Assembly: GCF_016591715.1 (NCBI RefSeq)
Contig: NZ_AP024109.1
Span: 3,162,001-3,226,000, forward strand
From: Mesorhizobium sp. J8
GTDB taxonomy: Bacteria > Pseudomonadota > Alphaproteobacteria > Rhizobiales > Rhizobiaceae
Reading direction: 5' to 3'
DNA length: 64,000 bases
Shown one piece after another: positions 3,615 through 35,233 of the stretch. Made by a program: the position numbers and the translations under genes. A model generated the notes under the pieces. The model did not search any database. It was not told where the DNA came from and saw nothing but the letters and a program-made list of their open reading frames with translations. How positions within the stretch are numbered: position 1 is the stretch's first letter; every line of letters starts with the position of its first letter.

Positions 3615-3680
3615 CTGGCGATTCATGGTCACCTGACGGCCCTCGCGTTTGCGACCGTAATGAACGAGGAGGTGCCGCAG

Positions 3681-5270
3681 ATGAACCAGCGCGTTGGACG
3701 CATCGCCAAGCCCGCAGGCCTTGTAAAGGCGCTGCTCTACGCGCGCGTCTCTTCCAAGGAGCAGGAGAAGGAAGGCTTTTCCATCCCAGCGCAATGCAAG
3801 CTGCTGCGCGACTACGCCCTGCAACATCGGTTCGACGTCGTGCAGGAGTTTATCGATGTCGAGACGGCCAAGACCAGTGGCCGGACAAACTTCACCGAGA
3901 TGGTCAAATACCTGCGAAAGCACCCCGGCATTCGAAGCGTCCTGGTCGAGAAGACCGACCGGCTCTATCGCAACCTGAAGGACTGGGTGACTCTCGATGA
4001 ACTGGATATAGAAATCCACCTTGCCAAGGAAGGTGTGACGCTATCGCGGGACTCGCGCTCATCTGAAAAGTTCATGCACGGCATCAAGGTCTTGATGGCC
4101 AAGAACTATATCGACAACCTGTCGGAAGAAGCGCGGAAAGGGCAGACGGAGAAGGCGGAGCAGGGCATCTGGCCTACCAAGGCTCCGCTGGGCTATATCA
4201 ACACCACGGGCAAGGATGGCAGAAAGGTTATCGAGCCGCATCCTGAACTGGCTCAAGTCGTCACACAGCTGTTCGAGCGCTACGCAACTGGACAGTATTC
4301 ACTCAAGGCCCTGGCCAAGGCAGCCCATGGCGATGGGTTGATCTATCCCACGAGCGGCAATCCGGTTCCGGTCAGCACGGTGCATACGATCCTCCGCAAT
4401 CGCCTCTATACGGGGCTGTTCCAGTGGAACGGCAAATTGCACCGGGGCAAGCACGAACCGCTCGTATCGATCGAGCTATGGGAGCGGGTCCAGGGCATCC
4501 TGACGGGTCGCAATGCGGTGCCGACGCACCCGATAGGAAACGAGTTCGCCTTCACCGGCCTGATCACCTGCACCGAATGCGGCTGCGCAATCGTGGCGGA
4601 GATCAAGAAGGGCAAATATGTCTACTATCACTGCACGGGGCATACCAACAAAGGCCGGGGCGGGTACGGTGATTGCCGCCGCAAATATGTCCGCGAGGAA
4701 GTGCTCGATCAGGCCTTCGCCAACTTGCTTGACCGCTTGCATTTCGACGAAGAGATACTGGAATGGGTAAAAGCAGCCCTCGTGGCCAGCCATGCCGACG
4801 AGCGCCGCGAGCACGAGCAGGCGATCCACCGTTGCCAAGTCGAGTACAAGCGGCTCGAGGACCGGCTGCATGCCATGTATCTCGACAAGCTCGATGGCCG
4901 CATCGACAACGCCTTCTACGACCGGATGTCGGCACAGTGGCGAACCGAACAGACGCGGCTGCTTCGCGAGATAGAGCGCCATGGCAGCGCCGAAGAATCA
5001 TACATGGAGGACGGCATCCGGTTGTTGGAGCTGGCGCGCAACGCTAGCCGAATGTTTGCAAAACAGCCTGCGCAGGAGAAAAAGCGGCTCTTGAATCTTG
5101 TGCTGTCGAACTGCCACTGGGACCAAGGCGAGGTTCACGCGGTCTTCCGGCAACCGTTTGATCTGCTTGCGGAAACGGTCGCTTCTGGAGCGGCGATAGG
5201 CACACAGCGGAGCGATTTATCAACAGGGAGTCCAGTTTGGCTGGGGAACCTGGATTCGAACCAGGACTAA
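3681..5270 (+). CDS. Large serine recombinase (site-specific integrase/resolvase)
   Basis: A 529-residue large serine recombinase. The N-terminal resolvase domain starts LLYARVSSKEQEKEGFS with the nucleophilic Ser at residue 24. A Recombinase domain follows (KAPLGYINT, TVHTILRNRLYTGLF), then a zinc ribbon (LITCTECGCAIVAEIKKGKYVYYHCTG) and a coiled coil. The ATG at 3681 is chosen because GAGGAGG lies 8 bp before it; the ATG at 3660 has no such site. The final residues WLGNLDSNQ are encoded by the antisense of a tRNA-Gln 3' end, so the present stop codon lies inside the tRNA gene. This suggests the reading frame was completed by insertion at the tRNA, or that its true C-terminus was replaced. 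Confidence 0.9.
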   Translation: MNQRVGRIAKPAGLVKALLYARVSSKEQEKEGFSIPAQCKLLRDYALQHRFDVVQEFIDVETAKTSGRTNFTEMVKYLRKHPGIRSVLVEKTDRLYRNLKDWVTLDELDIEIHLAKEGVTLSRDSRSSEKFMHGIKVLMAKNYIDNLSEEARKGQTEKAEQGIWPTKAPLGYINTTGKDGRKVIEPHPELAQVVTQLFERYATGQYSLKALAKAAHGDGLIYPTSGNPVPVSTVHTILRNRLYTGLFQWNGKLHRGKHEPLVSIELWERVQGILTGRNAVPTHPIGNEFAFTGLITCTECGCAIVAEIKKGKYVYYHCTGHTNKGRGGYGDCRRKYVREEVLDQAFANLLDRLHFDEEILEWVKAALVASHADERREHEQAIHRCQVEYKRLEDRLHAMYLDKLDGRIDNAFYDRMSAQWRTEQTRLLREIERHGSAEESYMEDGIRLLELARNASRMFAKQPAQEKKRLLNLVLSNCHWDQGEVHAVFRQPFDLLAETVASGAAIGTQRSDLSTGSPVWLGNLDSNQD

Positions 5271-5311
5271 CGGAGTCAGAGTCCGTGGGTCTACCGTTAA
5301 CCTATTCCCCA
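5238..5311 (-). tRNA. tRNA-Gln (anticodon CUG)
   Basis: On the minus strand the acceptor stem TGGGGAA pairs with TTCCCCA, the T arm contains GGTTCGAATCC, and the anticodon stem ACGGA/TCCGT encloses the loop CTCTGAC with anticodon CTG. CCA is encoded at 5240-5238, giving 74 nt including CCA. It is flanked on its 3' side by the serine recombinase, which overlaps it by 33 bp, and on its 5' side by the tyrosine integrase gene. Its upstream flank is only about 45 bp long and holds a terminator-like hairpin, so no separate tRNA promoter is evident. Confidence 0.93.
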
Positions 5312-20634: not shown

Positions 20635-20973
20635 GTGAATTTGCGATCGTATTTTGCCGCGGCGAGTGTGGTGCTGTTGTCGGGCTGTGCTGCTGACTAT
20701 TTGAACAATTACGATACGATGACGCTTGCGTCCGGCGACGCAAACAACGCCAATTCGCTTCTGCAGACGGTCGATCCCTTCAATCCGAACAGCAACAACA
20801 CGCATATCGAAGGCGACGGGCAGCGCAGCGTCGCTGTGATCCAACGCTATAGATCGCCCGCGTCGGGCGGAGGCGGCTACATCGGCAATTGTCCGACCGA
20901 TGAAAGTAGGGCTGCGGATGGATCGCGCTGTGGCGGCCGCTCGGCCGAGAGCCGCCCGGGCGGCGCGCCGTGA
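20635..20973 (+). CDS. Small lipoprotein upstream of thermonuclease
   Basis: A 112-residue lipoprotein beginning with GTG at 20635 (NLRSYFAAASVVLLSGC, lipobox LSGC) after a GGGGGA site. The mature part has DTMTLASGDANNANSLLQTV and NNTHIEGDGQRSVAVIQRY. It overlaps the next gene by 4 bp (GTGA), so the two are co-translated. The upstream extension of the frame to 20026 lies antisense to other genes and was rejected. Confidence 0.7.
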   Translation: MNLRSYFAAASVVLLSGCAADYLNNYDTMTLASGDANNANSLLQTVDPFNPNSNNTHIEGDGQRSVAVIQRYRSPASGGGGYIGNCPTDESRAADGSRCGGRSAESRPGGAP

Positions 20974-21827
20974 TCGGCATCGACAAGTCCCGTTACGACA
21001 ATCGCTCCGACCAATGGCGGCGACGCACTGGCGCGAAACGCTCACGTGCCACTCGATGGGCCAGCGTGCCGTTTCGTCTCGTGCTCGTGACGGTCGCTGC
21101 GGTATCCGCCCTGGTCACGCAATTCGTCATGCACAACAGTGCGCCCCTGCCGGAAATCAACCTGCAGAACATCATCAAGCCGAGGCCGGTGTCGATCGTC
21201 GGCGCCGCCTCGGTGATCGATGGCGACACGATCGAGATCCACGGCCAGCGCGTGCGCTTCAACGGCATCGACGCGCCGGAGAGCCGGCAATATTGCGACG
21301 ACGCGAAGGGCTTTGAATATCCCTGCGGTCGCCGCTCCGCCGAAGCGCTGGACAAATTCCTGGCCGCCTCCAGGCCGGTGCAATGCGCATTCGTGACTTG
21401 GGACCGGTACGGGCGCTTTGTCGGCACCTGCACGCGCGCCGACGGAGCCGACGTCGCCGCCTGGATGGTCGAGCACGGGCAAGCGCTGGACTGGCCCAAA
21501 TACAGCAACGGCGCCTATTCAGCGCAACAGGCCATGGCACAGGCTGCAAAGCTGGGCCTATGGGTTGGCAACTTCCAAGCGCCATGGGATTGGCGGGCCC
21601 AGCACAGCGACGTTCCGCAGGCGCCTGCGAAACCAACTTTCGCGCTCGACGGTGGGAATGGCGGCTGCAACATCAAAGGCAACATTTCGGCGGGAGGCGA
21701 GCGGATCTATCACGTGCCCGGGCAGAGATATTACAGCGTCACAATCATCAACGAGACCAAAGGGGAGAGATGGTTTTGCTCGGAAGCCGAAGCCATTGCG
21801 GCCGGATGGCGAAGGTCGAAGCGATAG
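20970..21827 (+). CDS. Membrane-anchored thermonuclease (SNase) family protein
   Basis: A 285-residue protein. One N-terminal membrane helix (RLVLVTVAAVSALVTQFVM) is followed by a staphylococcal-nuclease domain: ASVIDGDTIEIHGQRVRFNG, IDAPESRQYC and the catalytic-type WDRYGRFVGTC. A C-terminal extension from CNIKGNIS to GERWFCSEAEAIAAGWR is often found fused to rhizobial SNases. It starts with GTG overlapping the preceding lipoprotein stop. It is likely a periplasmic nuclease acting on DNA or RNA. Confidence 0.88.
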   Translation: MIGIDKSRYDNRSDQWRRRTGAKRSRATRWASVPFRLVLVTVAAVSALVTQFVMHNSAPLPEINLQNIIKPRPVSIVGAASVIDGDTIEIHGQRVRFNGIDAPESRQYCDDAKGFEYPCGRRSAEALDKFLAASRPVQCAFVTWDRYGRFVGTCTRADGADVAAWMVEHGQALDWPKYSNGAYSAQQAMAQAAKLGLWVGNFQAPWDWRAQHSDVPQAPAKPTFALDGGNGGCNIKGNISAGGERIYHVPGQRYYSVTIINETKGERWFCSEAEAIAAGWRRSKR

Positions 21828-22087
21828 ATTGACGACGTCCGAACGAGGGAGCCGGCTGTGCGACTTGGGCAAGGGAGGATCAGGCCCAACGACTGTGGCG
21901 TGGGTTGATGCCCCATGCTATGCGTCCCCGATGGGTGGTAGGATTGCAAAGTCGGGGATCGCCACAACCGACCTGGCCATGCGGTTCAGGCGAGTTGCAA
22001 TCCAACTTTACAAATCTTTCTGCATAGGCCAGACCCTATCGCACCCTCCAACCATTGCTCCCCTTCCGAACTGGAAAGGTTAACACC
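21828..22087. other. Non-coding gap before the candidate defence operon
   Basis: I see no convincing gene in these 260 bp. It holds an imperfectly spaced inverted repeat, TCCCCGA and TCGGGGA about 20 bp apart near 21927-21960. The base composition shifts here from G+C-rich host-like sequence to the A+T-richer operon, so this is the likely left boundary of the acquired operon. Confidence 0.4.
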
Positions 22088-23167
22088 ATGGCGGCCAACA
22101 GCCACGTGCTAAAACAGGATGTGATGGTCCCCATCAAGGACCTGAAATTCGATCCTGAAAACCCTCGTGTACCGACCGAGAAATTCGAGAACGAGGAAGC
22201 GGCGGTACAGTACCTCAAAGACGAATACGACCTTGAGGAACTGGTTCAGTCCATTTTATCCTCAGGTTGGATCGACTTCGAACCCCTTATCGTACAGAGC
22301 AAGACTAATATTGTATTCGAAGGAAATCGGCGGTTAGCGGCACTACGGCTTATTGAAAGTCAAGCACTCCGTGATGCAGTTAACTATCGACTGCCAGACA
22401 TCCCAAACGCAAAGCAATTGCCCAAAGAGGTAAGGGTTCGCTATGTGGATACTCGGGGGGAAGCGCGCCGCTTCGTAGCCTTCAAGCACATTAACGGGCC
22501 ATTTAAGTGGGATGCGTACGCGAAGGCGAAGTATGCTACCGACTGGCTGGACGAAGGCGAAGACGTCGACGTAATAAGTAGAACGCTCGGGGACAATCAC
22601 AACACGGTTCGTCGTCTTATAGCGGGTTTTCGGGTCCTTGAGCAGGCGCAAGAACGCGGATTTGATATCAACCAGAGAACGAAGAAGCGTTTTGCTTTCT
22701 CTCATTTATACACGGCTGTCTCTCGCCCGGGTGTCAGAACATTTCTCGGAATTGAGGATGACGAAGACTTGTCGAAGGTCCCGGTCCCAGCAGCAAACGG
22801 AGAACAGCTCGATCAATTGATGTCATGGCTTTACGGGCAGGAACAGAAACGTGAGCCGACCGTAATCGCGAGCCAAAATCCTAACTTGAACCAGTTGGTT
22901 CGAGTTATAGAAAATAAAAATGCGTTGGCTGCCTTAGTGAGCAGCAGAAGGCTTGATCAGGCATTCGAACAGGTCGAACCACCTTCAGAGCGCTTCAAAG
23001 AGGCGCTTTTGGCTGCGTCAAAGGAATGTGAAAACGCATTAGGACTATCAAGTTACTTCGATGGCGACGAAACGTTACTTGCCATGATCAGAAACTTGGC
23101 CACGACCGTCAGAACTTTGCGAGACACCATGGTCAAGAAAAGCTTGGGCGACGCTGAGGATCTGTGA
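22088..23167 (+). CDS. ParB/Srx N-terminal-domain protein, first gene of candidate defence operon
   Basis: A 359-residue protein with a ParB-type N-terminal fold: VPIKDLKFDPENPRVP, LEELVQSILSSGWIDFEPLI and the nucleotide-binding type motif EGNRRLAALRL (residues 78-88). A helical middle with an HTH-like VISRTLGDNHNTVRRLIAGF follows. The C-terminus is helical and unassigned. It is much larger than a plain partition ParB and has no parA, so a partition role is unlikely. GNRR-type ParB-like proteins occur in DNA-modification and phage-defence loci. The ATG at 22088 follows GGAAAGG. The stop at 23167 is immediately followed by the next start codon, so the operon is tight. Confidence 0.75.
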   Translation: MAANSHVLKQDVMVPIKDLKFDPENPRVPTEKFENEEAAVQYLKDEYDLEELVQSILSSGWIDFEPLIVQSKTNIVFEGNRRLAALRLIESQALRDAVNYRLPDIPNAKQLPKEVRVRYVDTRGEARRFVAFKHINGPFKWDAYAKAKYATDWLDEGEDVDVISRTLGDNHNTVRRLIAGFRVLEQAQERGFDINQRTKKRFAFSHLYTAVSRPGVRTFLGIEDDEDLSKVPVPAANGEQLDQLMSWLYGQEQKREPTVIASQNPNLNQLVRVIENKNALAALVSSRRLDQAFEQVEPPSERFKEALLAASKECENALGLSSYFDGDETLLAMIRNLATTVRTLRDTMVKKSLGDAEDL

Positions 23168-24268
23168 GTGCGCATCATCCCACCCGATTTGAATTCTAGT
23201 AGAGCAAGGTTTGCGGACTGGCTGGAGATCTTAACACTCGCCAGCGACGCCGGTGAGGTTTCGGTGTCCGTAGTGCGCTCACTTCTCCGAAGAGCGTCAG
23301 ACGATAGAATCTCGGCTAAGGACCTCGACGCTGACGGTGATGACACTGGTGAACCAGAAGTCACCGACAGGGCGGCTGACGACCTTGAGGAGCGGGTCGT
23401 TGAAGAGCTTGTATTGCGGTCTAGGACTGTAAACGCAGCTTATCCTTTCGAGATTAAGGTCGGAGGGAAGCTTGGCGAGTCACAGGTTTTGAAAAGGAAG
23501 GCAACCTGTTTTGATCCGAAAACGGGCCAACTGTTTTACACGTTCTGTCTGCTCGACTCAGGAATTCGAGACGCCATCATAAAGGTGCCAAGAGATTCAC
23601 AAGCCCTGGTCACACAGATTGGGAACATTTTCCAAATTTGCTCTTGCATCGCTGTTGGTGGTTATACAAAGGCGCAGGTGGTCTCGTTTGGATTTCCTCG
23701 GGCCACAGGCGACGCATTCCTCCCAGCGCTCAAAGCCGTCTGGAGCAAATATGGCTCGTTCTCTGTGCGGCCTGACATCCCGCATGGCTTCGACGACAAG
23801 CTCAAGGACGGTGGCATCGACATCATAGCTTGGCGCCCGTTTGAAGACGGACACGCAGCCACGTTCTTAATGTTTGCGCAGGTAGCGTCCGGACTTGGCT
23901 GGAAAGACAAGCCGGTGGCCAACGATGTCAGAGCCATTCGTCAGTGGTTTGTTGATGAGCGGTTTGAGCACTTTTTGCCCGCTATTTGTATTCCCTTTCC
24001 GCTTTGGTTCGACTTGGACGAGCCACCCAGGGACCTGCTCGGCAACAGACAGCCCTACAGCGCGGGTGTGCTCCGGCGTTTTATGGTGAGGGAAAGTGCG
24101 TTCGGTGTCATATTCGACAGGGGGCGAATCGCCCTTTCATGCGCAGAGGCGTTTGGTGGTCCTGGCGGTCCACTGAATGGCATTGAAGGAATGGATAGGG
24201 TGGACGACGTTTCCGTATGGGTCGACAGAGTCATGCAGGGACTCGCTGAACGTCGAGCTGCTGCATGA
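23168..24268 (+). CDS. Unknown protein with PD-(D/E)xK-like signature, second gene of candidate defence operon
   Basis: A 366-residue protein starting with GTG directly after the previous stop. Residues 213-222 read KDGGIDIIAW and 235-242 MFAQVASG, an arrangement like Mrr-type PD-(D/E)xK nucleases where Asp218 and Gln238 would replace the Asp/Glu-x-Lys pair. A preceding region GYTKAQVVSFGFPR and a C-terminal domain (VLRRFMVRESAFGVIFDRGR) are unassigned. The N-terminal 80 residues are helical and acidic. I infer a DNA-cleaving or DNA-recognising role from the motif plus the adjacent methyltransferase. No named family is recognised with certainty. Confidence 0.65.
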   Translation: MRIIPPDLNSSRARFADWLEILTLASDAGEVSVSVVRSLLRRASDDRISAKDLDADGDDTGEPEVTDRAADDLEERVVEELVLRSRTVNAAYPFEIKVGGKLGESQVLKRKATCFDPKTGQLFYTFCLLDSGIRDAIIKVPRDSQALVTQIGNIFQICSCIAVGGYTKAQVVSFGFPRATGDAFLPALKAVWSKYGSFSVRPDIPHGFDDKLKDGGIDIIAWRPFEDGHAATFLMFAQVASGLGWKDKPVANDVRAIRQWFVDERFEHFLPAICIPFPLWFDLDEPPRDLLGNRQPYSAGVLRRFMVRESAFGVIFDRGRIALSCAEAFGGPGGPLNGIEGMDRVDDVSVWVDRVMQGLAERRAAA

Positions 24269-25359
24269 GGCACCCGCTTCATTCTATTTGCCCTTATTTC
24301 GCTATGTTCCCTGAAAGCTTCGTGGCCGAGCAGCTTTTTGCATATACGCGCCCGAATGAGTTGGTCTTCGATCCGTTTTGTGGGCGTGGGACGACCGTGC
24401 TGGAAAGTCTCCTTAATGACAGGCGGGCCATTGGATCCGATATCAACCCCGTCGCGGCTTGCGTAGCTGGAGCAAAGGCCCAGGTCCCTGATCTTCTCCA
24501 CGTTTTGCAACAGGTCGATGAGCTTGAAAAAAGTTACCATTCGTCTGATCATGATGCGGTAGCGCAAAGTGAGTTCTTCCAAATGTGTTTCCATCCGGAG
24601 ACCTATTCTGAGGTGACGTTTCTGCGCGATAATTTGGATTGGAGGAATAGCTCCGTTCATCGCTTTATAGCAGCCGTTCTGCTGGGTATCTTGCATGGCG
24701 AATCACATCGGTCGGCTTTGGCTTTAAGTAACAGGATGCCGAGAACAATTAGTACAAAGCCGGACTACTCGGTCCGCTGGTGGAAAAAACACGGGTTGAA
24801 CCCACCCCGACGTGAGACTTTTAAGATTTTAAGAGAGGCAGTAGCTTTCCGCTATTCCAGAGTACCGCCTCGCAAGCAGGGGGTAGTAGTGGAAGCCGAC
24901 TCACGGACCGCCGGGGATCGATTCCTGAATTTTCAAGGGCAAGTGTCCTTAGTGGTCACTTCGCCTCCCTACCTCGACACTACCGATTACTCGGAAGATC
25001 AATGGCTTCGGCTGTGGTTCTTAGGAGGAGCCGAGCGGCCGGCGACTCGACTAAATCGCGATGATAGGCTCACAGTAGTAGGCGACTACTGGGTGTTTTT
25101 GCAGGACATTTGGGCCGGGATTGTTAAGCTTTTGCGCCCTGAGGCGACTATTGTGGTGCGGATAGGTGGAACGCGCCTTAGCAAAGAAGATCTGTTTGAA
25201 GGTCTCCAAACGGGGCTGCAGTTCGCTATGCCAAATCGCAAGATTCGGCCGTTGCACCAGGGGCGTTCATCTGAAATTGCGAAACGGCAAACCAACTCGT
25301 TCCGGCCCGGAACCAAATCGGACCGGATGGAACACGACTTTGCTTTCCGACTAGGTTAG
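24265..25359 (+). CDS. DNA methyltransferase, third gene of candidate defence operon
   Basis: A 364-residue amino-type DNA methyltransferase. SAM-binding motif I DPFCGRGTT is at residues 36-44 with an acidic SDINP at 58-62, and catalytic motif IV TSPPYL is at 232-237, so motif I precedes motif IV. The gap of about 190 residues between them probably contains the target recognition region. TSPPY enzymes methylate adenine N6 or cytosine N4. Its ATG overlaps the preceding stop by 4 bp. It ends 11 bp from the convergent cI stop, so the operon abuts the phage repressor. Confidence 0.85.
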   Translation: MRHPLHSICPYFAMFPESFVAEQLFAYTRPNELVFDPFCGRGTTVLESLLNDRRAIGSDINPVAACVAGAKAQVPDLLHVLQQVDELEKSYHSSDHDAVAQSEFFQMCFHPETYSEVTFLRDNLDWRNSSVHRFIAAVLLGILHGESHRSALALSNRMPRTISTKPDYSVRWWKKHGLNPPRRETFKILREAVAFRYSRVPPRKQGVVVEADSRTAGDRFLNFQGQVSLVVTSPPYLDTTDYSEDQWLRLWFLGGAERPATRLNRDDRLTVVGDYWVFLQDIWAGIVKLLRPEATIVVRIGGTRLSKEDLFEGLQTGLQFAMPNRKIRPLHQGRSSEIAKRQTNSFRPGTKSDRMEHDFAFRLG

Positions 25360-25369
25360 CTCGCTTGGA

Positions 25370-26074
25370 TCATCGGGCATTGTACTTCCCCACCACCCGA
25401 TGACAGATCGGCCAGTCGACGCGGCTCTCCGTAAACGTCTTCGCCGGCCGGTATTGCTCCAGCGTCCACTCCCGATCGTTCATGCCGACCAGGCGCTTGA
25501 TGATGGCTTCCTCGTCGCCGCGCTCCTTGGGAGGGGTGTGGAAGAACACAGCGTCGGAGTCGCGCGCCGGCTGGAGATGCGGGTTCACCAGCGCGGTATC
25601 CCCGGGCCAGTAGGCAGGAATCATGGACTCGCCGCGCACCAGGATGCCGTAGCCGCCTCGAACATTCTGCAGCACCGCCGGCCGCTTTACCCAGTCGATC
25701 GCCTCGAAGGTGACGATCATATGGCCTTCGCCGCCCATGGCGGCGGCGTAGATCGGCAGGTCGCGGCCGCCGACCAGCTCGTCGCCGGGGATAATCGGGG
25801 TGCGCGACGCTCTCGGCTTCGGCTCGCGCACGATGGGCACCGGCGCCGCGCCTGAGGCGTCGAGCAGCCAGGCGACATCGGTCTTGAGCATTGCGGCAAG
25901 TTCGGGCAGCCGCTCCATCGAGGGGCGGGTGGTGTCCGCCTCCCATTGCGTGACCGACACGCGCTTGATGCCGAAGTGATCGGCGATGTCGTTCTGCGTC
26001 AGGCCGGCAGCCTCCCGCGCCTGGCGCAGGCGCTGGCCGAGGGACGTCGAGTCGGTGCGTATCGTCGCGATCAT
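25370..26074 (-). CDS. CI-like prophage repressor (XRE HTH plus S24 peptidase)
   Basis: A 234-residue LexA/CI-type repressor. The HTH is at residues 12-70 (LGQRLRQAREAAGLTQNDIA, then FGIKRVSVTQWEADTT). The linker is proline-rich. The C-terminal S24 domain has catalytic Ser150 in RGESMIPAYWPGD and Lys193 in AIIKRLVG, so RecA-stimulated self-cleavage on DNA damage is expected from the family. It is divergent from cro with the shared operator between. A minus-strand TTGCAA...TACTAT pair just before the ATG could be its own promoter, leaving a very short leader. Confidence 0.9.
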   Translation of the reverse strand: MIATIRTDSTSLGQRLRQAREAAGLTQNDIADHFGIKRVSVTQWEADTTRPSMERLPELAAMLKTDVAWLLDASGAAPVPIVREPKPRASRTPIIPGDELVGGRDLPIYAAAMGGEGHMIVTFEAIDWVKRPAVLQNVRGGYGILVRGESMIPAYWPGDTALVNPHLQPARDSDAVFFHTPPKERGDEEAIIKRLVGMNDREWTLEQYRPAKTFTESRVDWPICHRVVGKYNAR

Positions 26075-33239: not shown

Positions 33240-35233
33240 GCATCCACATGGGGCCCGGCCACCCGGGAGCGCTGCGCCTGGCCGGCGTGGCACTGGCGGA
33301 TGGCATCAGACCCCGGCCGCCGGCGCGATTTCGCGAGTGGCTGCCCAAGAACATCGTCCTGGTCGACGGGCCGAAGAAGGGAGAATTCTGGGCGCTGGAC
33401 GACGCGCCATATCTTGGCGAGATCGCCGACTGCCTCAGCATCGAGCATCCTTGCAACCTGGTGACGGTGCGCAAGTCGCAGCAGACCGGCGTGTCGATCC
33501 TGGCGCTGGCCTGGGCGCTCTACATCGCCGACACCGCGCCGGACAACACGATCTACGGCCTGCCGTCGATAGACTTCCTGCAGGACATGAACAGCCAGAA
33601 GCTGCAGCCGCTGATCGAGGCCTGGCAGAAGGAGACGGGTAAGCAGGTCATCTTTCCCGCGGTTAGCCGGTCCGGCGTTGGCTCCACCATCTACGAGAAG
33701 CGCTTCGCGGGCGGATCGCTGATGCTGGCCAACGCCAATGTGGCGACCGACCTGTCGGGCAAGACAACGCGCTACGGCGTCAAGGACGAAGTCTCGAAGT
33801 GGCAGACCCACGTCACCGGCGACGATCCCGAGACGTTGTTCTTCGGCCGTTTCACGGCCTTCCGTCGCACGAAGTCCTACAAGATATTCGAGCTGTCGAC
33901 GCCCGAGATCGACACCGGCGACGAGCTCGGCGACGCCCAGGGGCATTGCCGCATCGACCGGTCCTTCAAGCGTTCGGACCAGCGCTTCTGGAACATCGCT
34001 TGCGTCGAATGCCGTTCAGAGTTCGTCCAGTCGCATGAGGGCTTCCACCTCGACCGGCTGCATCCGCATAAGAGCTTCTATGTCTGCCCGCATTGCGGAC
34101 ACATCGTCAGCGAAACGGAGCGGGTCATCGGCGTTCGCCACGGTCGCTACGTAGCCACGCTCACCGGCCCCGACCGGCATCCGGGCTTCCACGTCGACGC
34201 CTTCATCTCGCTGATGATGAGCTACGAGGCGATCGCGGAAGACATGCTCAACCAGGCCAAGCCCGGCGGGCTCGGCGAAAAGGGCATCTTCAACCTGGTG
34301 TACGGCCTTCCCGCCAAGGTGAAGGGCAACGCGCCGGAATACGAGCGGCTGATGGAGCGCCGCGAGCCCTTCGCCGAAATGAGGGTCCCGGCGGACGGCC
34401 TTGTCCTGGTCGCTGGCGCCGACGTGCAGCATAACGGCATCTGGGCCGTGGTCGTCGCATTCGGCGAGGACCGGCAGAGCTGGGTGCTCGGCGTTCGCTT
34501 CTTCGAAGGCACGACCGACAATCCCGGCGAGGGCGCCTGGACGAAGCTCGACGCGTTCTTCGCCAAGCCGCTCGACGATGCCTTCGGCGGACAGCGGCGG
34601 ATCGAGGCGCTGGCGGTGGACGGCGGTGACGGCGGCCGCACCAACCAGGTGCTGGAGTGGTGCCGGCGCCGCGCCAATGCCTATGCGGTCAAGGGCGTCG
34701 GCGGCCGCGGCGTGCCGGCGATTAGCGTTCCGGCCAAGAAGTCGGTCACCAAGCGCGGCAAGCGCAAGCGTTTCGGCAGCGCCATGCTGTGGCCCGTCGG
34801 CACCTGGGGCCTGAAGGCGGAGCTGTTCGCCAACCTGCACAAGCTCGGCCTTCGCTCCGGCGAGCCGGCAGACCCGCCGGGTTATGTGCATTTCGGCGAC
34901 TTCCTGCCGAAGGAATATTTCCTGCAGCTCACGGCCGAAGCCTTCGTGGCCGAGGTCGTGCGCGGCAAGTTCCACGAGGAATGGAGACGCCTGAGGCCGG
35001 ACAATCACTGCCTCGACGCTCATGTCTACGCCATGGCCATGGCCGAGATGCTCGGCCTCTCCACGAGGCGGGCGGACGACTGGTCGGCCTTACGGCAGCG
35101 GCTGCAACCGCCGCTCGAGCCCGACCTGCTCAACGGCCTGACCTTGGCCGCTCCGAATGCGCCGGCGCCGGTGGCGACGACGAATGACCCGGCCTCGCAG
35201 GCCCGGCGCCAGAAATGGAAGAACCGCAAATGA
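33236..35233 (+). CDS. Terminase large subunit (lambda gpA family)
   Basis: A 665-residue packaging ATPase/nuclease. VTVRKSQQTGVSILALAWAL is the ATPase region, YGVKDEVSKW a Walker-B-like strand, a Cys4 zinc-binding insertion is seen in IACVECRSEF and YVCPHCGHIVS, and VLVAGADVQHNGIWAVVVAF plus DNHCLDAHVYAMAMAEML form the RNase H-like nuclease. It belongs to the PF05876 family. The TTG at 33236 has GAGGACGAAGAAC upstream; ATG 33248 is an alternative. The stop overlaps the portal start. Confidence 0.92.
   Translation: MSIHMGPGHPGALRLAGVALADGIRPRPPARFREWLPKNIVLVDGPKKGEFWALDDAPYLGEIADCLSIEHPCNLVTVRKSQQTGVSILALAWALYIADTAPDNTIYGLPSIDFLQDMNSQKLQPLIEAWQKETGKQVIFPAVSRSGVGSTIYEKRFAGGSLMLANANVATDLSGKTTRYGVKDEVSKWQTHVTGDDPETLFFGRFTAFRRTKSYKIFELSTPEIDTGDELGDAQGHCRIDRSFKRSDQRFWNIACVECRSEFVQSHEGFHLDRLHPHKSFYVCPHCGHIVSETERVIGVRHGRYVATLTGPDRHPGFHVDAFISLMMSYEAIAEDMLNQAKPGGLGEKGIFNLVYGLPAKVKGNAPEYERLMERREPFAEMRVPADGLVLVAGADVQHNGIWAVVVAFGEDRQSWVLGVRFFEGTTDNPGEGAWTKLDAFFAKPLDDAFGGQRRIEALAVDGGDGGRTNQVLEWCRRRANAYAVKGVGGRGVPAISVPAKKSVTKRGKRKRFGSAMLWPVGTWGLKAELFANLHKLGLRSGEPADPPGYVHFGDFLPKEYFLQLTAEAFVAEVVRGKFHEEWRRLRPDNHCLDAHVYAMAMAEMLGLSTRRADDWSALRQRLQPPLEPDLLNGLTLAAPNAPAPVATTNDPASQARRQKWKNRK

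Follow-up and report, generated by a model that had tools for sequence, protein, structure and literature searches.

A prophage-borne ParB-type protein, nuclease-like protein and DNA methyltransferase as a candidate restriction-modification-like immunity unit in Mesorhizobium sp. J8

Introduction

Why would a prophage carry, next to its repressor gene, an operon pairing a ParB-type protein with a DNA methyltransferase and a nuclease-like protein between them, and could such an operon be an immune system? This question is raised by the window analysed here, a stretch of 64,000 nucleotides (positions 3,162,001 to 3,226,000 of NZ_AP024109.1) from the 6,690,860-base chromosome of Mesorhizobium sp. 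J8, in which we call the three genes A, B and M (Table 1). The trio is real, widespread and not named in the libraries searched, and it is a variant of the restriction-modification and PD-lambda-5 kinds. From sequence comparison and structural models, we consider it rather probable that this prophage cargo is an immunity unit resembling restriction-modification, in which A serves as sensor or loader and B as the nuclease.

Results

The three genes form one operon that recurs as a unit

A, B and M form one low-GC operon in a prophage cargo slot. All three lie on the forward strand, with no gap between A and B and a 4-bp (base pair) overlap between B and M; the single operon and the 0-bp junction proposed in an initial annotation of this DNA therefore stand, while the 4 bp between B and M that it had given as spacing is an overlap. 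The set recurs as a unit, with the order of A and B kept, in many phages and bacteria. B served to find 82 loci, 56 of them in species genomes and 26 in viral contigs. In 80 of these A lies immediately upstream; in a Brevundimonas genome the two are fused into one reading frame of 707 amino acids (L034:6807-8930), and one locus is cut off (L078). Similarly, 135 viral loci were found with A, and of the best 80 of these 78 have B directly downstream, the other two ending at a contig edge, and 75 have a methyltransferase within 1.5 kb, the remaining five being cut off. Because the two sets of loci have viral contigs in common, they are not independent, and some of the loci behind the A profile were B-found; a single-sequence search gives the same neighbours. 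In addition, B and a methyltransferase stand beside A in 8/8 genomes with a strong A match, the window genome included, drawn from two overlapping samples, of the class (289 genomes) and of the phylum (398 genomes). Weaker A matches represent other systems (PD-lambda-5-like, PDC-M38A-like or unrelated ParB-like proteins), and one such relative without B (L195/L222) is related to PDC-M38A (E 6.2e-60). The neighbourhood analysis thus bears out the expectation of the initial annotation that the trio would co-occur as a co-inherited set.

A methyltransferase lies close by where the flanks allow. In the B-found set the nearest one is of the D12 class in 41 loci, of the M type in 17 and of the C5 class in 10, with short flanks in 6 loci; the A-found viral set has 46 C5 (P2 type), 27 D12 and 2 M-type enzymes. 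Six of the 82 B-found loci, with at least 1.2 kb on both flanks, have no methyltransferase within 1.5 kb: L041, L042, L046 and L050 carry a C5 gene farther off, and at L023 and L048 none was found by the models used. The set is also present in complete Escherichia coli genomes, 103/5426 of which hold the DNA of gp96 of phage Wphi, a relative of B, and 12/5426 the D12-type set. Two A-B pairs occur at single loci in two cases, in tandem (L048:6505-11396) and in opposite orientation (L086:4794-9633).

The methyltransferase class is exchanged around one A-B core

To the initial annotation can be added that the class of methyltransferase is swapped between relatives. We followed this on a quick tree of A plus B (LG+G4) comprising the 92 of 152 loci left after removing rows more than 80% alike, six of them without a class label. 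As to exchange of METHYLTRANSFERASES, at least 8 changes between the three classes are required on this tree, against a shuffled mean of 38.7. The C5 class forms one side of a branch (support 99), and the D12 and M types interchange; L007 (PF01555) and L012 (D12), for example, are 75% identical in A and 66% in B despite their different methyltransferase classes. Distances in A and B agree (r 0.89, Mantel p 0.001), and within a class the A distances follow those of the methyltransferase (r 0.79 for D12, 0.87 for M and 0.35 for C5). The tree and these correlations indicate that A and B are inherited together, usually with their methyltransferase, which is now and then replaced by one of another class. 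At least 8 changes among three unrelated classes fit a role for methylation as such.

Predicted folds and motifs of the three proteins

A is predicted to be a two-domain ParB protein, with an N-domain holding a cytidine triphosphate (CTP) site and, beyond what had been annotated, a second, KorB/Noc-like DNA-binding domain. Its AlphaFold model has a predicted local distance difference test score (pLDDT) of 92.8 and a predicted template modelling score (pTM) of 0.84, and over residues 12-358 it matches phrog_3694 (E 3.3e-66), being a relative of Wphi gp98. Two traits of the CTP-switch proteins ParB, Noc and KorB are found in it, namely the ParB N-domain fold and a helix-turn-helix domain behind it. 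The motif VFEGNRRLAAL is present, its EGNRR aligning with the GERR of 4umk in a profile match (E 0.0026), and KHINGPFKW, in which H134 and W141 are invariant, stands where the third CTP-switch motif was looked for and not recognised. A Pfam search with A gave no match to AAA, DUF262 or DUF1524.

B is predicted to combine a winged helix with a PD-(D/E)xK fold. The AlphaFold model is of high quality (pLDDT 93.8, pTM 0.92); the fold matches are individually weak, and none suggests a fold other than a nuclease, in keeping with the initial annotation. At sequence level B matches phrog_14650 (E 1.8e-27), and the motifs KDGGIDIIAW and then FAQVASG are present, with Gln in place of the catalytic Glu; these, like EGNRR in A and DPFCGRGTT followed by TSPPY in M, had all been noticed before. 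What had not been noticed is that Ala240 stands at the position of the QxK lysine, and that the catalytic Lys has apparently moved to the next helix (K248). Conservation is nearly complete at this putative active site: D214 and D218 are kept in 103/103 rows of the alignment, Q238 in 102/103, K248 in 100/103 and A240 in 89/103, so that the acidic residue, the Glu/Gln and the Lys required of PD-(D/E)xK nucleases all seem to have their counterparts in B. Among 214 distinct segments from 225 B sequences, Lys occurs at 248 or 240 in 212, with both in L140 and neither in L162 and L166. Loss of K248 goes with a Lys at 240 (Fisher 7.7e-11, a test that treats relatives as independent), and since the five rows with this swap form one clade on the A+B tree, it was probably a single shift.

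B has eluded the model libraries. It has no match in PADLOC (up to E 1), Pfam (up to E 1) or NCBIfam, and by the same Pfam search it lies outside the Mrr_cat sequence family. Foldseek against viral models returned no match at E <= 0.001, the second row being an Mrr-like protein at E 0.021, and sequence searches of the PDB with B gave nothing useful. In phage records, tblastn with window B found no relative at E 1e-5 (0/50,697), whereas A has relatives in 12 records; what revealed the relatives of B in Wphi, vB_EcoM-12474III and D14A was their place beside A, together with phmmer or profile matches. In viral contigs, a scan using the single sequence of window B came back without loci, against 26 for a scan based on the alignment. 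Among named relatives of window B the best, at 72%, comes from a Mesorhizobium plasmid.

M is an amino-methyltransferase (PF01555, E 1.3e-14; PADLOC MTase_II, E 5.5e-27). Its residues 11-62 match profile positions 162-213, and because motif I precedes motif IV its order is permuted relative to the usual one of PF01555. The TSPPY motif is compatible with N4-cytosine or N6-adenine methylation. Both motifs being intact, M supplies the DNA methyltransferase expected of Type II restriction-modification.

The operon occupies a variable slot of a tailed prophage

The surroundings of the trio are those of a tailed prophage, with PHROG matches to an integrase (3660-5270), the repressor, primase genes, a terminase (33248-35233), a portal, a tail sheath and an endolysin. 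A tRNA-Gln gene (window 5238-5311) overlaps the 3' end of the integrase gene and is a possible attachment site. The G+C content of A, B and M is 50.2%, 54.7% and 52.4%, against 62.3% for the whole window, and at third codon positions 55-58%, against 67-88% in five other window genes measured.

Among 119 genomes of the same genus, four (L246-L249) have a repressor 97-98% identical to that of the window. In these, the DNA beside the slot aligns at 84-92% identity, ending at 21823-21830 and resuming at 25367-25377, and all four hold other genes between these borders instead of the trio, with slot G+C fractions of 0.530, 0.516, 0.570 and 0.497 and flanks of 0.61-0.63. One slot encodes a 981-amino-acid TrlF-family protein (NF045780, 642 bits, cut-off 350; PADLOC Ppl E 6.9e-31), another a UvrD/GajB-like helicase pair whose helicase resembles GajB weakly (E 9.3e-17), another a protein with a weak match to a TIR effector (E 2.2e-10), and another a P-loop ATPase that resembles an anti-phage family at a score under the cut-off (E 3.7e-10). 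The trio therefore occupies a place that this prophage family uses for exchangeable genes, some of them defence-like. In G348 (L251), a fifth genome of the genus, the alignment is confined to the trio (22118-25348, 66.6%), which has a different setting there; this indicates that the trio moves as a unit. The earlier proposal of lateral transfer is upheld. By eye, the neighbours of the trio in L001, L002, L003 and L251 look like mobile elements.

The initial annotation had also likened the position beside the repressor gene to that of exclusion genes such as rex. The two do adjoin, at 10 bp rather than the 11 bp given. The rex genes of lambda are co-transcribed with the repressor. Here the trio runs toward a repressor gene on the opposite strand, and we therefore reject rex-like expression with the repressor.

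Table 1. Position of the trio, its motifs and predicted domains, and the bordering features, in window coordinates
Feature	Position	Strand	Description
Gene A	22088..23167	+	open reading frame from ATG 22088, 359 amino acids, ParB-type protein
A residues 12-130	22121..22477	+	predicted ParB/Srx N-domain with EGNRR
A residues 143-190	22514..22657	+	helix-turn-helix part of predicted KorB/Noc-like DNA-binding domain
Gene B	23168..24268	+	open reading frame from GTG 23168, 366 amino acids, predicted winged helix and PD-(D/E)xK nuclease
B residues 7-134	23186..23569	+	winged-helix-like N-terminal region
B residues 213-248	23804..23911	+	putative active site, K213 D214 xxx D218 ... Q238 x A240 ... 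K248
Gene M	24265..25359	+	open reading frame from ATG 24265, 364 amino acids, amino-methyltransferase (PF01555), circularly permuted order
M motif I, DPFCGRGTT	24370..24396	+	sequence
M motif IV, TSPPY	24958..24972	+	sequence
Prophage repressor gene	25370..26074	-	phrog_4 transcriptional repressor, E 6.6e-27; convergent with the trio, 10 bp from M; slot border
Variable cargo slot	21831..25366		between a nuclease-like gene (20970-21827) and the repressor gene; DNA homology of L246-L249 interrupted here

Discussion

The closest named relative of the trio is PD-lambda-5, in which a ParB-type protein also stands beside a DNA methyltransferase, often in prophages (PADLOC PD-Lambda-5_A and _B; Vassallo et al. 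2022, PubMed Central (PMC) article PMC9519451). Of the PD-Lambda-5_A models 24 match A, at E 3.1e-18 for the best, the best-matching stretch being residues 15-135 of a 454-position model; hhalign of A against PD-lambda-5_A gives E 3e-29 over 251 columns, and D12 methyltransferases beside relatives of A and B match PD-Lambda-5_B (E 2.7e-101 and 1.4e-97). However, the match is limited to the N-terminal part of A and falls short of full length, whereas a true PD-Lambda-5_A member (L014:4369-5802) matches model positions 1-464 of 466. Moreover, B shows no relation to the C-terminal part of PD-lambda-5_A (hhalign probability 0.1) and has no counterpart among the PADLOC models, and M of the window is a PF01555 rather than a D12 enzyme; PD-Lambda-5_B does not occur among the 25 of 54 PADLOC matches listed. 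The initial annotation was right that the trio is no named system, in that no exact match exists in the libraries searched, and left this clear cousin unnamed. We do not claim a HEPN domain for the C-terminus of PD-lambda-5_A, as L109 and L110 gave no Pfam match and L095, L198 and L010 none to a HEPN family. Our search of open-access PMC text found no paper with both the name PD-lambda-5 and ParB. A PD-lambda-5 pair is also present in the trio's own genome (L225:5587-7799, C1 ~105.6-107.8 kb; PD-Lambda-5_A E 1.1e-36, PD-Lambda-5_B E 3.1e-79).

The two systems meet in one locus (L010:903-5430), where the overlapping genes of one array are PD-Lambda-5_A, a single D12 methyltransferase, A and B; it looks as though one methyltransferase served two effector modules. 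L026 and L029 have similar arrays, with a weak PD-Lambda-5_A match in L026, and L014 shows one too. Such arrays and the common sensor fit a common plan, a ParB-type sensor with an effector, tied to a methyltransferase.

A second relative is the PADLOC candidate PDC-M38, a ParB-AAA protein accompanied by M38B. PDC-M38A matches residues 46-329 of A (E 2.2e-19) but carries an AAA_21/AAA_15 domain and has M38B as second gene, whereas A, at 359 amino acids, has no AAA match and B no PADLOC match up to E 1; the PDC-M38 stretches L217-L220, for their part, gave no match to the three methyltransferase models used. A fusion of the ParB-type sensor with AAA_21/AAA_15 is followed by PDC-M38B in L217:5317-8363, L218:4890-7984 and L219:4569-7336, the M38B model match being in L217. 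Also close are gp98-gp96-mth of Wphi and the set of vB_EcoM-12474III, in which A and B have complete homologues in unchanged order, located at a cargo site of the phage; they differ in their convergent C5 cytosine methyltransferase and are annotated as hypothetical or as gp98/gp96, without a system name. GmrSD, BrxU and SspE (DUF262 and DUF1524) likewise couple a ParB/Srx-type NTPase domain to a nuclease (PMC4619093, PMC10952713), but those enzymes sense modified DNA, and neither DUF262 nor DUF1524 is matched in A or B. We also count CglI/NgoAVII restriction-modification among the closest known systems (PMC4267653). The trio as such was not found described in open-access PMC text, a search that lay outside supplements and preprints.

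How might the trio work? M would methylate host and prophage DNA at its own target site. A, with a nucleoside triphosphate (NTP) pocket, probably for CTP, and a helix-turn-helix of its own, would act as the sensor by loading on unmarked DNA, where it might form a mobile clamp gated by NTP, and would recruit or license B to cut. CTP use, recognition of unmethylated DNA, cutting and defence are what we infer from the folds and neighbourhoods described above. A defensive role is suggested by the location of the Wphi-type sets, between the portal and replication gene A, a region that is the P2 hotspot of PMC9519451, and by the other defence-type genes that relatives hold in the window slot. It is also suggested by kinship with PD-lambda-5, an anti-phage system that protected against nearly all phages tested (PMC9519451), and by the L010 array, which carries both around its D12 gene. 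It is tempting to speculate further that A, loaded at a site without methylation, uses CTP to close, then slides and licenses cutting by B; we regard this version as possible, though on balance doubtful. GERR is missing in A, the helix-turn-helix of A shows no extra variability and the single fold matches of B are weak, all of which weigh against it.

The constant pairing of A and B bears on what A does. B could be a restriction enzyme of the usual Type II-like sort that locates its site unaided, and it does own a winged-helix-like region, while A, the first gene of the operon and similar to the CTP-dependent transcription repressor KorB, would regulate the operon as KorB or a controller protein does. 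We find this unlikely, since the pairing holds in 80/82 and 78/80 loci with only the fusion and cut-off contigs as exceptions, A and B are fused in L034, and in PD-lambda-5 and PDC-M38 this sensor is joined in one protein to different effector-like parts; an operator search, weak evidence in itself, found no perfect palindrome with arms of at least 6 bp in the 250 bp upstream of window A. Nor does it seem probable that A is itself the nuclease and B merely helps it to bind. ParB/Srx domains with nicking or nuclease activity have been reviewed (PMC5512222), but B keeps D214, D218, Q238 and K248 nearly without exception and has Lys at 240 where K248 is lost, as would be expected of a working active site, so that we give this idea little credence.

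The prophage setting invites two other explanations. A and B might turn on the DNA of their own cell once methylation is lost, or might kill a cell that is infected, the set thereby serving as an abortive or addiction system by which the prophage is kept. The set is indeed prophage-borne, and PD-lambda-5 has been called a compacted RM+Abi (restriction-modification and abortive infection) system (PMC9519451); B, however, resembles a DNA nuclease and not a known toxin family, and while the sequence does not distinguish the two, we hold this to be slightly less likely again than a regulatory A. Alternatively, the trio might be a replication, partition or packaging module whose methyltransferase protects phage DNA, given that it is phage-borne and that ParB proteins serve partition elsewhere. 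That is the least likely explanation of all in our view, as the slots hold unrelated genes in sister prophages, the set lies between conserved genes in P2-like phages, and it also occurs outside phages, for example on a Mesorhizobium plasmid, and in a different setting in G348. We thus prefer the restriction-modification-like immunity unit in which A would be the sensor and B the nuclease.

Complete sets recur in prophages, yet no searched library names the middle gene, B, and the prophage slot seen in L246-L249 is worth mining for defence genes. Because three methyltransferase classes are swapped around one A-B core, the set would make it possible to ask which of its components recognises methylation. 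For PD-lambda-5, whose mode of action is left open in the available text of PMC9519451, it suggests a mechanism that can be tested. If the CTP-clamp version is true, the trio would belong to a modular class of immune systems in which one ParB sensor with a helix-turn-helix is combined with exchangeable effectors (B, the C-terminus of PD-lambda-5, or AAA and M38B of PDC-M38) and exchangeable methyltransferases (N4/N6, D12 and C5). If A is a CTP-gated sensor, the discrimination of self from non-self would be coupled to a chromosome-partition switch, and if the CTP clamp is true, a partition-type switch would do the job performed by helicase motors in Type I and III enzymes.

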